Positions 14,998-63,063 of a DNA stretch of 64,000 nt are shown here, in pieces. The stretch is from assembly GCF_000024025.1 (NCBI RefSeq), contig NC_013131.1:9528229-9592228 (forward strand), in the 5' to 3' direction. A program made the translations under genes and the position numbers. This stretch comes from Catenulispora acidiphila DSM 44928. GTDB lineage: Bacteria > Actinomycetota > Actinomycetes > Streptomycetales > Catenulisporaceae. The notes beneath the pieces were generated by a model that ran no database searches, was not told the origin of the DNA, and saw nothing but the letters and a program-made list of their open reading frames with translations. Numbering within the stretch: position 1 is the stretch's first letter; each line of letters begins with the position of its first letter.

Positions 14998-15501
14998 TTA
15001 AGCTTGCCGAGCCCGCCGAGCGCCCGCCGGACTTTCCTCCGGTGTGGCCAAGTGCCCCCGCGTCAGCAGTTCCAGCGCCTCCAGCAGCACCGGCCGCATC
15101 TCCTCGGGCAGCGCGCCGATCGCGTCGGCGTGCACGCGGTCGACGATCTGCTGCGTCCGCTTCGCCATCTCGGCGCCGGCGTCCGTGACCGCGATGATGC
15201 GCGCGCGGCGGTCGGTCGCGGAGGGCCTGCGCTCGGCCAGGCCCGCCTTCTCCAGGGCGTCGACCGTCACCACCATCGTGGTCTTGTCCATGTCGCCGAT
15301 CTCGGCGATCTGGATCTGCGTGCGCTCCTCCTCCAGGGCCTTGACCAGCACGCAGTGCATGCGGGCGGTCATGCCCACCTCGGCGAGCCCCGCGGCCATC
15401 TTGGTGCGCAGCACGTGGGAGGTGTGGTCCAGCAGGAACGACAGATCGGGCGCCGTGCTCGTCACGGCGTCGGTGCGCGCGGCGGGCGCCAGGGAGGTCA
15501 T
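14998..15501 (-). CDS. MarR family transcriptional regulator
   Basis: A 167-residue winged-helix regulator. The DNA-binding part spans about residues 45-115: TQIQIAEIGDMDKTTMVVTVDALEKAGL is the recognition helix region (quoted here only for its first half, TQIQIAEIGDMDKTTM), followed by the wing RRPSATDRRARIIAVT. It is divergent from an MFS drug exporter 148 bases away, the classical arrangement in which the regulator represses both genes until a toxic ligand binds. GGAGG-like sequence is weak; the ATG at 15501 fits family length. Confidence 0.9.
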   Translation of the reverse strand: MTSLAPAARTDAVTSTAPDLSFLLDHTSHVLRTKMAAGLAEVGMTARMHCVLVKALEEERTQIQIAEIGDMDKTTMVVTVDALEKAGLAERRPSATDRRARIIAVTDAGAEMAKRTQQIVDRVHADAIGALPEEMRPVLLEALELLTRGHLATPEESPAGARRARQA

Positions 15502-15518
15502 GCGGGCAGTCTACTCCG

Positions 15519-15558
15519 AGACAACTCCGGGAGAAGATCTTCCCGAAAAAGATTGTCT
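15519..15558. promoter_or_regulatory. Probable MarR operator in the divergent MarR/MFS region
   Basis: An outer inverted repeat AGACAA (15519-15524) / TTGTCT (15553-15558) flanks a central palindrome GAAGATCTTC (15533-15542). The nested symmetry lies 18 bases upstream of the MarR start and about 90 bases before the MFS start. Confidence 0.55.
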
Positions 15559-15649
15559 GCTTCAAAACCATCCGCTACGGTCAGTCCTATCGGCCCGGCG
15601 AGGTTCTGCCTCCGCGGCTCCCCGCGTCCTGTCCTCCAGGAGTGATCGC

Positions 15650-17191
15650 ATGTCCTTCGAATCCCGAACTCCCAGCGCTCCGGGCGCTCCTCGCGCTCCC
15701 CGAACTCCCCGAACTCCCCGCCCCGCCGGGTCGCCGCGGCTCGCCCTCGCGGTGATCGCCGCCAGTGCCCTGATGGCGGTCCTGGACGGCAGCATCGTCA
15801 CCGTCGCCATGCCCTCCATCCAGTCCCACCTCGGCTTCTCGCCCGCCGGCCTGAGCTGGGTGGTGAACGGCTACCAGCTCGCCTTCGGCGGCCTGCTCCT
15901 CCTCGCCGGCCGCCTCGGCGACCTGCTGGGCCGCAAGCGCGTGTTCCTGGCCGGCATCGCGCTGTTCCTCGCGGCCTCGGCCGTGGCCGGCGCCGCGACC
16001 TCGCCGGCGATGCTGGTCGCGGCCCGGTTCGCGCAGGGCGTCGGCGGCGCGGCGTCCTCGGCGGTGAGCCTGGGCATCCTGGTGACGCTGTTCACCGAGC
16101 CGCGCGAACGGGCCAAGGCGCTCGGCGTCTTCGCCTTCACCGGAGCCGCCGGCGCCTCGATCGGCCAAGTGCTCGGCGGGGTCCTGACCGACGCGCTGAG
16201 CTGGCACTGGATCTTCCTGATCAACATCCCGATCGGGCTGCTGACCCTCGCTGCCGCGGTCCGGGTGATCCCGACCGACCGAGGCCAGGGCTTGCGCGCC
16301 GGCGTGGACGTGAGCGGCGCGCTGCTGGTCACCGGCGGCCTGATGCTCGCCATCTACACCGTGGTCGGCACCGCGGACCACGGCTGGGGTTCGTCCCGCA
16401 CGCTCGGGCTCGGAGCCCTGTCCGTCCTCCTGATCGCGGGCTTCTTCGTCCGCCAGGCCACCGCCGCCAACCCCCTGATGCCGCTGCGCATCCTGCGCTC
16501 GCCCGGCGTCGCCGCCGCGAACGTGGTGCAGATGCTGATGATCGCGGCGATGTTCGCCTTCCAGATCATCGTCGCCCTCTACATGCAGCGAGTCCTCGGC
16601 TACGACGCCACCGAGACCGGCCTGGCGATGCTCCCGGCGGCGGTGGCGATCGGCGGCGTGGCGCTGGGAGTGTCAGCCCGCCTGATCGCGAAGTTCGGCG
16701 CCCGCAGTGTCCTGATCACCGGTCTGGCGATGCTCACCGGCGCCCTCGCGCTGCTGCTGCGCATGCCGACGCACGCCAACTACGTCCGTGACCTACTCCC
16801 CACGATGCTGCTGATCGCCGGCGGCGGCCTGGCGATGCCCGCGACCGCCGGGCTCGGCATGTCCGGCGCCCGCGAGCAGGACGCCGGCCTGGTCTCCGGG
16901 CTCTACAACACCACCCAGCAGGTCGGAGCCGCGATCGGGGCGGCGGTCCTGTCCACGCTCGCCGCCGGACGCACCGCGCACCTGCTGCGCGCCGGCCACA
17001 GCCCGGCGGAAGCGCTGAGCAGCGGGTACCACGCGGCGTTCATGATCGGCGTCGGACTGCTGGCGGTGGCGCTGATCGTGGCCGTGTTCGCGCTGCGCGA
17101 CGCGCCGGAGCAGGACGCCCCGACGCCGACCCCGACCCCGACGCCTCAGACCGCCTCAGCCCTCGACCTCGTCCTCGCGCCGACCGGCTGA
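15650..17191 (+). CDS. DHA2-family (14-TM) MFS drug exporter
   Basis: A 513-residue proton antiporter of the EmrB/QacA type. After a Pro/Arg-rich N-terminus (residues 1-30) the first helix ends in the DHA2 motif LMAVLDGSIVTVAMPSIQ; motif A is GRLGDLLGRKRVF (about 85-97) and motif C-like sequence is GAAGASIGQVLGGVL (about 165-180). About 14 hydrophobic segments follow and the C-terminus ends in a PTPTPTP stretch. AGGAG at 15638-15642 supports the ATG at 15650. The 3' end overlaps the converging gene by 46 bases. Confidence 0.92.
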   Translation: MSFESRTPSAPGAPRAPRTPRTPRPAGSPRLALAVIAASALMAVLDGSIVTVAMPSIQSHLGFSPAGLSWVVNGYQLAFGGLLLLAGRLGDLLGRKRVFLAGIALFLAASAVAGAATSPAMLVAARFAQGVGGAASSAVSLGILVTLFTEPRERAKALGVFAFTGAAGASIGQVLGGVLTDALSWHWIFLINIPIGLLTLAAAVRVIPTDRGQGLRAGVDVSGALLVTGGLMLAIYTVVGTADHGWGSSRTLGLGALSVLLIAGFFVRQATAANPLMPLRILRSPGVAAANVVQMLMIAAMFAFQIIVALYMQRVLGYDATETGLAMLPAAVAIGGVALGVSARLIAKFGARSVLITGLAMLTGALALLLRMPTHANYVRDLLPTMLLIAGGGLAMPATAGLGMSGAREQDAGLVSGLYNTTQQVGAAIGAAVLSTLAAGRTAHLLRAGHSPAEALSSGYHAAFMIGVGLLAVALIVAVFALRDAPEQDAPTPTPTPTPQTASALDLVLAPTG

Positions 17192-18150
17192 GCCGCCCGC
17201 AGACCGAGCAGCGCGCTGAACAGGCAGTAGCCGACGAACGCCGCCACCGCCTCGATCGCCGCGGCCGGCAGGTCCACATCGCCCTTCAGCAAGTCCGGCG
17301 CCTTCAGCGCGACCCCCGCCGCCACCGAGATCGTGACCGCCGACCGCCACGGATGCCGCCGCATCTCCAGCCAGCTCATCAGATGCGGCATCCGCGCGGC
17401 GGCGGTCGCCCACGTCCGCGTCACCAGCTCGAACAGCCGCGCACTCCACATCCACCGCGCCGCCAACACCTCGCTGCAGTCAGCGATCACATCCAGCGTC
17501 GAAGACCCCCCGGACACCGTGCCGACCCGCAGCAGAGCCCGCACACTCAAGACCATCGCGACCGGCACCGCAAGCGCCGCCAAAGCCGACACCGCCCCCA
17601 GCGTCCACGAGGAACGAGCGATGTTCCCGGCCGCGACCACCCCGATTGGCAGCAACGCCAGAACCGCGACCGCCTGCGCCCGCACCGCCGTCGCCAACGT
17701 CCCCGGAGCCCTGCCGAGCACCCGAGGCGCGATCACCGCGATCAGAAAAGCGGTCCCGGCACACATCGCCGCCACCTGCCCAAGCAGCACGGGACCGGCA
17801 TAGTAAACAGCCTGATTCGGCCACGGCACCACCGGCGCCCCACCCTGATTCGCCAGCCCCGCAGCCCCAACCGCCGCCACCACGCCCACCACCAGCGCCC
17901 ACGCCGCAACCCGCGCACTGTGCAGCGCACAATCCCGATTGAACTCCGCAGCCACCTCTTCCGGAGCCCCGAAGCGCGCCGTCGCCCGCCGCGCCGCAGC
18001 CTGCGGCGTGTGACCGGCAGCCTCCTCCTCGGCAATCGCATCAGCCAGATGCGCCGCGACCTCGCTGACAATCCGCCGCCGCCCTCGGATCCCGACGCGC
18101 AGCCGCCACGCGAGATCATCCAGGTAGCCCTCGACCGACCGATACGTCAT
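17146..18150 (-). CDS. HAAS-domain (DUF1700-like) multi-pass membrane protein
   Basis: A 334-residue protein with a cytoplasmic N-terminal HAAS-type domain (about 1-75: VEGYLDDLAWRLRVGIRG, then VAAHLADAIAEEE and ARFGAPEEVAAEF), followed by about six or seven membrane helices (80-215 and 275-315). Such proteins are typically encoded after a PadR gene and are thought to act with it in envelope stress or transport, but no mechanism is established. Here the start overlaps, by ATGA, a duplicated 27-codon micro-ORF, itself coupled to the PadR gene. The 3' end overlaps the converging MFS gene by 46 bases. Confidence 0.85.
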   Translation of the reverse strand: MTYRSVEGYLDDLAWRLRVGIRGRRRIVSEVAAHLADAIAEEEAAGHTPQAAARRATARFGAPEEVAAEFNRDCALHSARVAAWALVVGVVAAVGAAGLANQGGAPVVPWPNQAVYYAGPVLLGQVAAMCAGTAFLIAVIAPRVLGRAPGTLATAVRAQAVAVLALLPIGVVAAGNIARSSWTLGAVSALAALAVPVAMVLSVRALLRVGTVSGGSSTLDVIADCSEVLAARWMWSARLFELVTRTWATAAARMPHLMSWLEMRRHPWRSAVTISVAAGVALKAPDLLKGDVDLPAAAIEAVAAFVGYCLFSALLGLRAAQPVGARTRSRAEAV

Positions 18151-18230
18151 GACGCCACCGCCGAACCCGCGTCAGCCAGATGTGCCACCACTTCGTCGAG
18201 ATGGCCCTCGACCGACAGGTATGTCGTCAT
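18147..18230 (-). CDS. 27-residue micro-ORF, truncated HAAS copy (proximal to permease)
   Basis: Runs from ATG at 18230 to TGA at 18147 and overlaps the starts and stops of its neighbours by ATGA. The peptide begins like the membrane protein (MTTYLSVEGHLDE), continues with VVAHLADA (matching VAAHLADA of its HAAS domain, but with about 18 residues in between deleted), and ends with GSAVAS, the C-terminus of the PadR protein. It is therefore a relic of duplication that has kept an open frame and coupled start/stop signals. Whether the peptide is made is unknown. Confidence 0.5.
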   Translation of the reverse strand: MTTYLSVEGHLDEVVAHLADAGSAVAS

Positions 18231-18310
18231 GACGCCACCGCCGAACCCGCATCAGCCAGATGTGCCGCCACATCGTCGAGATAGCCCTCGACCGACAGGT
18301 ACATCGTCAT
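18151..18310 (-). repeat. 80-bp tandem duplication at the PadR/HAAS gene junction
   Basis: Two contiguous 80-base units, 18151-18230 and 18231-18310, identical at 74 of 80 positions. A partial third copy continues into the PadR 3' end (from 18311, about 20 bases). Each unit carries the PadR stop codon context, an ATGA overlap and the 5' end of the downstream gene. Confidence 0.95.
18227..18310 (-). CDS. 27-residue micro-ORF, truncated HAAS copy (proximal to PadR)
   Basis: ATG at 18310 to TGA at 18227, again with ATGA overlaps to the PadR stop (upstream) and to the next micro-ORF (downstream). The peptide reads MTMYLSVEGYLDD, then VAAHLADA, then GSAVAS: the same fusion of HAAS N-terminus and PadR C-terminus as its neighbour, differing at a few residues. 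Together the four genes form a chain in which each stop overlaps the next start. Confidence 0.5.
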   Translation of the reverse strand: MTMYLSVEGYLDDVAAHLADAGSAVAS

Positions 18311-18678
18311 GACGCCACCGCCGAACCCGCGTCGGTCCGGCCGCCGCCACCGGCTTTGGTCTCGGCGCCGAACACGCGCTCCACCGCGGCCGAGAACGAG
18401 CGCCACTCGGTGCGGCGATCCTCGGCGGCGCGGCTGCCTGAGGCGGTCAGGCTGTAGACCCGGCGGCGGCGGCCGGCGACCTCGGACCAGCCGCTGGCGA
18501 CCAGGCCGGCGCGCTCCAGGCGGTGCAGTGCCGGGTAGACCGAGCCCTCGGGGAGGTCGAAGACTCCGCCGCTGCGGTCCCGCAATGCCTCGATGAGTCC
18601 GTATCCGTGCGAGGGTCCGGTGGCGAGCACCGCCAGCACCAGACCGTCGAGGTGTCCGCGCATCATGTCCTGGCTCAT
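18307..18678 (-). CDS. PadR family transcriptional regulator
   Basis: A 123-residue winged-helix repressor: LDGLVLAVLATGPSHGYG (about residues 10-27), EGSVYPALHRLERAGLV (about 44-60) and the wing AGRRRRVYSLTASG (about 68-81) are classical PadR features. The last residues (DAGSAVAS) belong to the duplicated junction. It heads the operon with the micro-ORFs and HAAS membrane protein. An inverted repeat directly abuts its start codon and is the likely autoregulatory site; the lack of room for a leader suggests a leaderless message. Confidence 0.92.
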   Translation of the reverse strand: MSQDMMRGHLDGLVLAVLATGPSHGYGLIEALRDRSGGVFDLPEGSVYPALHRLERAGLVASGWSEVAGRRRRVYSLTASGSRAAEDRRTEWRSFSAAVERVFGAETKAGGGGRTDAGSAVAS

Positions 18679-18680
18679 AC

Positions 18681-18699
18681 CTAGGAAGCCTAAGCCTAG
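18681..18699. promoter_or_regulatory. Probable PadR operator
   Basis: Inverted repeat CTAGG-N9-CCTAG at 18681-18699, with an internal AGCCTAAGCCT direct repeat, starting 3 bases upstream of the PadR start codon. Confidence 0.5.
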
Positions 18700-18753
18700 A
18701 GCGTCTGGGTATCAAGGGCGGCGGACCGGGTCGGGAGAAATCCTTGCTCCGTT

Positions 18754-18829: not shown

Positions 18830-19249
18830 ATGCCGAAGTTCATGGTCTTCATTCCGGGCAACGCCGACTCCGAGGCCGGGATCATGCCGCCGACCGATCT
18901 GTTCGAGGTGATGAGCGCCTACAACGAGCAGCTCGCGAAGGCCGGCGTCCTGCTGGCCGCTGAAGGGCTGACGCCGACGTCGGCGGGTGCGAAGGTGCGG
19001 TTCGACGACGCCGAGCGGCGCACCGTCGTCGACGGGCCGTTCACCGAGGCGAAGGAGATCGTCGCCGGATATTGGCTGCTTCAGGCGTCCTCGCTGGAGG
19101 AGGCGCTGGAGTGGGTGAAGCGCGCCCCGTTCGCCGGCGGCCTGACGCTGGAGGTGCGCCCGATCGCCTCGATGGACGACCTCGGGCCCGAGTTCACGCC
19201 GGAACTGCGGGAGGCTGAGCAGCAGCTGCGACAGCAGCTCGGCGAGTAG
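18830..19249 (+). CDS. YCII/DGPF-domain protein
   Basis: A 139-residue cytoplasmic protein of the YCII-related family, named for its conserved DGPF motif, seen here as VVDGPFTEAKEIVAGYWLL in two parts around residue 66. The start KFMVFIPGN and the ending EVRPIASMDD also fit. DGPF proteins are nearly always encoded next to ECF42 sigma factors, as here (53 bases upstream of one). Their role is unknown. GAGGAG at about 18816 fixes the ATG at 18830. Confidence 0.9.
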   Translation: MPKFMVFIPGNADSEAGIMPPTDLFEVMSAYNEQLAKAGVLLAAEGLTPTSAGAKVRFDDAERRTVVDGPFTEAKEIVAGYWLLQASSLEEALEWVKRAPFAGGLTLEVRPIASMDDLGPEFTPELREAEQQLRQQLGE

Positions 19250-19301
19250 CGGCCGCTCAACCGCCTCGGCTGGTCCGCGCCCCGGCTGCCAGACTGGCGC
19301 C

Positions 19302-20687
19302 ATGGCGCAGACGACCAAGACCGTCGCGACCGCCAAGACCGCCGAGACCCTCGAGACCGTCGAAGCGGTCTGGCGGATGGAGGCGGCCCGCGTGGTGGCC
19401 ACCCTGGCCCGTTACACCGGCGATCTGGGCTTGGCCGAGGAACTGGCCCAGGACGCGCTGGTCGCGGCGCTGGAGCAGTGGCCGGCCGAAGGGGTGCCGG
19501 CCCGGCCCGGCGCCTGGCTGACCGCGGTCGGCAAGCGGCGCGCCGTGGACCACTTCCGGCGCGCCGAGACGCTGCGCCGCAAGGTCGGCGAGCTGGGCCG
19601 CGAGCTGGAGGCCGGCGGCGCGCCGGCCGAGACCGACCCGGCCCTGGACGCCGTGGACGAGGCGCTGTCCGACACCGCCGTCGACGACGACCTGCTGCGC
19701 CTGGTCTTCACCGCCTGCCATCCGGTGCTGTCCGCCGAGGCCCGCGTCGCGCTCACGCTGCGCGTCCTCGGCGGGCTGACCACCGCCGAGATCGCCCGCG
19801 CGTTCCTGGTCCCGGAAGCCACGGCCGCGCAGCGGATCGTGCGGGCCAAGCGCGCGCTCGCCGACGCCGGAGTCCCGTTCGAGGTCGCCGACGGTCCCGA
19901 GCGGCGGCGGCGCCTGGCCTCAGTGCTGGAGGTCGTGTACCTGATCTTCAACGAGGGCTACTCGGCGACCGCCGGCGACGACTGGCTGCGCGCCGACCTC
20001 TGCGAGGAGGCGCTGCGGCTGGGCCGCGTACTGACCGCGCTGATGCCAGCCGAGTCGGAGGTGCACGCGCTGCTGGCGCTGATGGAGATCCAGGACTCGC
20101 GGCGGCACGCGCGGACCGGACCCGACGGGGAGCCGGTGCTGCTACTGGACCAGGACCGTGCGAAGTGGGACCGGTCGCAGATCGAGCGGGGTCTGGCAGC
20201 CCTGGTGCGTGCCGACCAGGCGTTCGCGGCAGAGCTCGAGGCAGCGGCAGCAGCAGCCGCAGCGGCGACGCAAAGCTCTGACACCCCCCAGCCGGGCACG
20301 TATCACCTCCAAGCCGCCCTCGCCGCATGCCATGCCCGCGCCCGCACCGCCGACGACACCGACTGGCGCCTCATCGCCGACCTCTACGACCGGCTCGTGC
20401 GGCAGACCCGCTCCCCGGTCGTCGAGCTCAACCGCGCCGTCGCGGTCGGCATGGCCGAGGGCCCGGCCGCCGGTCTGGCGATCACGGACGCGCTCACCGG
20501 CCTGCGCGCGATGCAGGGCTACCACCTGCTCCCCAGCGTGCGCGGCGACCTGCTGGTCCGGCTCGGCCGCCCTGCCGAAGCCCGCGCCGAGTTCGAGCGC
20601 GCCGCCGGACTCACCGCGAACACCCGGGAACGCGCGCTGCTGCTGGCGCGCGCCGCGGCGTGCGAAGCCGACGTCTCCGAGGCCTGA
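19302..20687 (+). CDS. ECF42-family RNA polymerase sigma factor with TPR-like C-terminal extension
   Basis: A 461-residue sigma factor, far longer than ordinary ECFs (about 180-200). Region 2 (about 20-90) has VEAVWRMEAARVVATLARY and LAEELAQDALVAALEQWP; region 4 (about 145-200) has TTAEIARAFLVPEATAAQRI. From about 215 to the end is the helical, TPR-like extension with FNEGYSATAGDDWLR, VELNRAVAVGMAEGP and AEARAEFERAAGLTANTRER. The extension is reported to be needed for ECF42 activity and stands in for a separate anti-sigma factor. The N-terminus carries about 20 extra Thr/Ala-rich residues; the in-frame ATG at 19377 is an alternative start. Confidence 0.9.
   Translation: MAQTTKTVATAKTAETLETVEAVWRMEAARVVATLARYTGDLGLAEELAQDALVAALEQWPAEGVPARPGAWLTAVGKRRAVDHFRRAETLRRKVGELGRELEAGGAPAETDPALDAVDEALSDTAVDDDLLRLVFTACHPVLSAEARVALTLRVLGGLTTAEIARAFLVPEATAAQRIVRAKRALADAGVPFEVADGPERRRRLASVLEVVYLIFNEGYSATAGDDWLRADLCEEALRLGRVLTALMPAESEVHALLALMEIQDSRRHARTGPDGEPVLLLDQDRAKWDRSQIERGLAALVRADQAFAAELEAAAAAAAAATQSSDTPQPGTYHLQAALAACHARARTADDTDWRLIADLYDRLVRQTRSPVVELNRAVAVGMAEGPAAGLAITDALTGLRAMQGYHLLPSVRGDLLVRLGRPAEARAEFERAAGLTANTRERALLLARAAACEADVSEA

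Positions 20688-60539: not shown

Positions 60540-63063
<2,524 letters not shown>

Follow-up and report, generated by a model that had tools for sequence, protein, structure and literature searches.

The two short open reading frames (micro-ORFs) that separate a PadR-family regulator gene from the gene of its HAAS-domain membrane partner in Catenulispora acidiphila are probably the relic of a recent, species-specific tandem duplication of the PadR/HAAS junction, and the peptides that they encode probably have no function of their own. They lie in a window of 64,000 nucleotides, the whole stretch of DNA analysed, from a Catenulispora chromosome of 10,467,782 bp (10.47 Mb) assembled as a single contig. 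The locus would provide a clean natural example of how a tandem duplication across an ATGA overlap automatically yields chained short ORFs while leaving the predicted coupling unbroken, and it calls for caution, as ORFs in a perfect overlap chain are not necessarily functional genes. No described case of micro-ORFs duplicated within an overlap chain came up in a literature search.

Organization of the PadR/HAAS locus

The genes of the locus all run in one direction on the minus strand. A PadR-family transcriptional regulator (18307–18678, 123 aa; Pfam PF03551, E = 2.1e-23), with orthologues 82–93% identical in nine Catenulispora congeners, is followed by micro-ORF 1 (18227–18310, MTMYLSVEGYLDDVAAHLADAGSAVAS) and micro-ORF 2 (18147–18230, MTTYLSVEGHLDEVVAHLADAGSAVAS), each 27 aa long, and then by a membrane protein of 334 aa with a HAAS domain of the permease-prefix type (17146–18150), the partner of PadR. 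This last protein matches the HAAS profile PF22564 (E = 3.9e-7; 30.8 bits, cut-off 27) as well as NF038403 (perm_prefix_1, E = 5.1e-10), and the GxP motif of HAAS helix 3 can be read in its sequence as ARFGAPEEVA (FGAP). HAAS-PadR pairs have been proposed to work as signalling dyads, with the GxP helix of HAAS relaying the signal to PadR (PMC11237479). The two flanking genes have the make-up of such a dyad, namely a standalone PadR-like wHTH protein beside a membrane protein with a HAAS match over the cut-off and a GxP motif, but differ from it in having ORFs in between, which encode no HAAS domains; at seven of the eight readable congener junctions no ORF separates the two genes.

Three stop/start overlaps of four nucleotides, each reading ATGA, chain PadR to micro-ORF 1 (18307–18310), micro-ORF 1 to micro-ORF 2 (18227–18230) and micro-ORF 2 to the HAAS gene (18147–18150), all on the minus strand. 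The 20 nt located 5' of the starts of both micro-ORFs and of the HAAS gene are identical to each other, and the Shine-Dalgarno pairing in this shared context is weak (−4.5 kcal/mol). Our re-derivation agrees with the preliminary description in its coordinates, its 80-bp unit, the identity between the copies, the length of the ORFs (27 residues) and the ATGA overlaps. That description also suggested that ribosomes could run from PadR to the permease without a gap; the unbroken chain is seen at all three overlaps, whereas the passage of ribosomes along it is a prediction.

Composition and proposed origin of the repeat units

The micro-ORFs correspond to two tandem 80-bp units (18145–18304, minus strand), identical at 74 of 80 positions and bordered on both sides by partial homology that spans 18125–18333. 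Tandem Repeats Finder (TRF) delimits the array at these outer limits with a period of 80, 2.6 copies and a score of 337, the second-highest among the tandem repeats of the window, and it is therefore not a product of chance. Each micro-ORF is composed of three segments. The first consists of 13 codons from the start of the HAAS gene, with one extra codon at position 3 of the micro-ORFs (ATG or ACA) that is missing from the permease; the second, past a gap of 18 codons (54 bp), is VAAHLADA of the same gene; and the third is the PadR tail GSAVAS with its stop, the last codons of PadR itself being DAGSAVAS. The start of the HAAS gene provides in this way 21 of the 27 residues. This codon-by-codon match bears out the earlier proposal of a HAAS N-terminus joined to a HAAS fragment lacking 18 residues and to a PadR C-terminus. 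The joint between the HAAS and PadR parts falls on a six-base microhomology, GAYGCG, found as GATGCG in the HAAS gene and as GACGCG in PadR, with micro-ORF 1 carrying the GAT form of the HAAS gene and micro-ORF 2 the GAC form of PadR.

These features suggest a scheme in which, in an order that we infer, an illegitimate duplication between GACGCG of the PadR tail and GATGCG of the HAAS gene would have copied some 134 bp, a 54-bp deletion inside the copy, in frame, would have left an 80-bp unit, and this unit would then have duplicated again. Since the unit begins in the PadR tail and includes the overlap, every copy automatically acquires an ATGA of its own; besides the PadR tail, each contains the start codon and the identical 20 nt that precede it. 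Ribosomes would terminate and restart at each ATGA, from PadR through micro-ORF 1 and micro-ORF 2 to the HAAS gene, which would retain its original start context, with the peptides as by-products. The insertion may have been tolerated because ribosomes leaving PadR could still reach the HAAS gene by these successive restarts. In support of this scheme, as few as 15 nt at the end of a preceding gene are enough for termination-reinitiation in E. coli (Huber et al. 2023, PMC10666635).

The junction in related Catenulispora genomes

Among the nine congeners compared, the PadR/HAAS junction could be read in eight, none of which contains the 80-bp repeat. In seven of these, PadR joins the HAAS gene directly by ATGA, GTGA or TGATG, with no micro-ORF. 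The exception, G005, has a 128-bp insertion at the junction that shows no similarity to the 80-bp unit and for which we found no source within the genus. It holds a single ORF of 43–44 codons, whose start lies at the PadR stop and whose end overlaps the HAAS gene by an ATGA; an unrelated event at the same junction has thus independently left one ORF in a chain of 4-nt overlaps, which supports the duplication-relic interpretation. In G008 (locus L007), the HAAS ORF is lengthened at its N-terminus by a long stretch of repeats, RQADAAQQADDVRQADTARQ, which follows the GTGA overlap and precedes the conserved start. The length of the PadR/HAAS junction is labile within the genus and the overlap chain is intact in every congener seen.

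The search extended to 12 further loci downstream of PadR genes (L011, L012, L014, L016–L022, L037 and L081; ten from the same order, the other two more remote), all with a direct 4-nt overlap and no micro-ORF, the downstream proteins there not necessarily being HAAS proteins. The two other PadR-HAAS pairs of this genome (L090 and L091), viewed as open frames, show no evident chained micro-ORF, and their HAAS frame stays open across the PadR stop. The micro-ORF units are confined to one species, represented by one genome, among the genomes compared, and their absence from the eight congeners with readable junctions speaks against conserved small proteins. The preliminary description had considered that single-copy relatives in which the frames were broken would reduce the micro-ORFs to silent debris; what the relatives offer is another form of that outcome, as the repeat is absent from all readable congeners.

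The direction and age of the copying can be deduced from the parent genes. In G006 and G007, PadR ends in DAGPAVA(S) and overlaps the HAAS gene directly, without micro-ORFs, which makes PadR the source and the micro-ORFs the copies. The sequence GGTTCG is common to the PadR tail and both micro-ORFs of this genome, with GGTCCG in G007 and G009; likewise, at the HAAS start, GTC (Val) in place of ATC (Ile) and a Leu codon in place of Val occur in the permease and both micro-ORFs of this genome and in no congener. Because these genome-specific states are common to parent genes and micro-ORFs, the duplication postdates the split from G007 and G009 and took place on this species' own branch. Both are sisters of this species (support 91/94) in a tree that rests mostly on the HAAS protein, PadR being missing for G007 and G003.

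Sequence change and signs of selection

Between the two micro-ORFs, four of the five changed codons (five of the six bases) are non-synonymous. Over codons 1–43 of the HAAS gene, this genome and G009 differ by ten synonymous and six non-synonymous changes. The excess of non-synonymous change between copies points toward relaxed constraint, but with such tiny counts it is not significant (Fisher p = 0.15), which also leaves room for weak purifying selection on the peptides, contrary to a passive relic. It had been stressed before that frame, start and stop were kept despite six changes. The observation is correct; as evidence of selection it loses its weight, since in simulations with six random substitutions the start and single stop of such an ORF survived in 55–64% of the trials.

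The lengths of the events deserve separate attention. The chain is preserved by the duplication (134 bp, 2 mod 3, like the 80-bp unit), by the deletion (54 bp, 0 mod 3) and by the insertion in G005 (2 mod 3), and the prior chance of a chain-preserving length is one in three per event, counted post hoc over three events. This hints that chain-breaking events may have been removed and that there has been some selection, at least for coupling. That both the duplication and the deletion preserved the chain, at one in three each a priori, counts against a wholly passive relic.

Alternative explanations

The units might act in cis as a translational attenuator, the two extra termination-reinitiation steps lowering the amount of HAAS protein relative to PadR whatever the peptides, a reading that we consider rather unlikely. 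Its basis is well established: of the gene pairs with short overlaps that have been tested, most show translational coupling via termination-reinitiation (Huber et al. 2019, PMC6728339), for which in E. coli the final 15 nt of the first gene are enough (PMC10666635). The same 4-nt stop/start overlap is present here at every junction, and short ORF tails would suffice as in E. coli, but here two duplicated ORFs separate the real genes and coupling is predicted from the overlaps. With an identical 20-nt context and weak Shine-Dalgarno pairing, restart may outweigh new initiation and losses would multiply at each imperfect restart, and it is physically plausible that two added restarts change the HAAS/PadR ratio. 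Against a regulatory role, the units are not conserved, the dosage change would come with no sign of selection, reinitiation efficiency cannot be read from sequence and the RNA fold is unremarkable (z = −1.51, with 15 of 200 shuffles folding as well); an attenuator structure in the RNA was dropped for this non-significant fold. A comparable case is the axe-txe operon, where reporter fusions showed that a two-codon mini-ORF affects the downstream gene in cis (PMC8708949); both systems have a very short ORF just 5' of the second operon gene, whereas the 27-codon ORFs described here, known from sequence alone, were born by duplication of the flanking genes. A more elaborate version, in which serial units set the ratio of HAAS protein to PadR, the 80-bp copy number works as a tunable translational dial and the G005 insertion is a convergent case, appears improbable. 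If the dosage effect were true, the locus would lend itself to the measurement of serial reinitiation, as a copy-number series provided by nature.

The preliminary description had also raised the possibility of decoys acting in trans, with HAAS-fragment peptides competing with the membrane protein for PadR. The 21 residues derived from the start of the HAAS gene fit such a role, but neither peptide matches HAAS or any other Pfam family at E ≤ 10, and a reading of the sequence shows that most HAAS helices are missing, among them the one with GxP, which has been proposed as the groove that faces PadR (PMC11237479). The absent domain match and the missing GxP helix rule out a HAAS decoy as the main reading; the mostly non-synonymous changes between copies and the restriction to one species further disfavour it, making it very improbable. 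An assembly or sequencing artefact is harder still to credit: tandem repeats are prone to mis-assembly and the species is represented by one genome, but the copies differ at six positions, the unit has a deletion missing from the parent gene and the genome is a single contig. A neutral relic, one of the three options initially put forward together with the decoy and the attenuator, is favoured by the absence of the units in relatives, the mostly non-synonymous changes and the intactness expected by chance.

Surrounding sequence

A conserved near-palindrome, CTAAGCCTAGGCTT-CTAGG, is found upstream of PadR (18679–18703, minus strand), with the variant CTAGGCTTAGGCTTCCTAGG in this genome; in most of the congeners shown it stops two bases short of the PadR ATG. 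It is a candidate PadR autoregulatory operator, and no Shine-Dalgarno site is evident between it and the PadR start. Divergent from PadR, at 18832–20687, are a gene for a YCII-domain protein and then one for a sigma factor with DUF6596, an arrangement that we take to resemble ECF42/DGPF pairs; a YCII-like protein also adjoins PadR in G007 and G008. At the other end of the locus, the gene of the HAAS protein and a convergent ORF on the plus strand (15044–17191), a probable MFS transporter, overlap tail to tail (17146–17191). The window contains another duplicated gene end, a tandem array of five 106-bp copies about 80% alike (62535–63062), which starts within the final codons of the gene for an MFS transporter (60549–62591) and extends beyond its stop.
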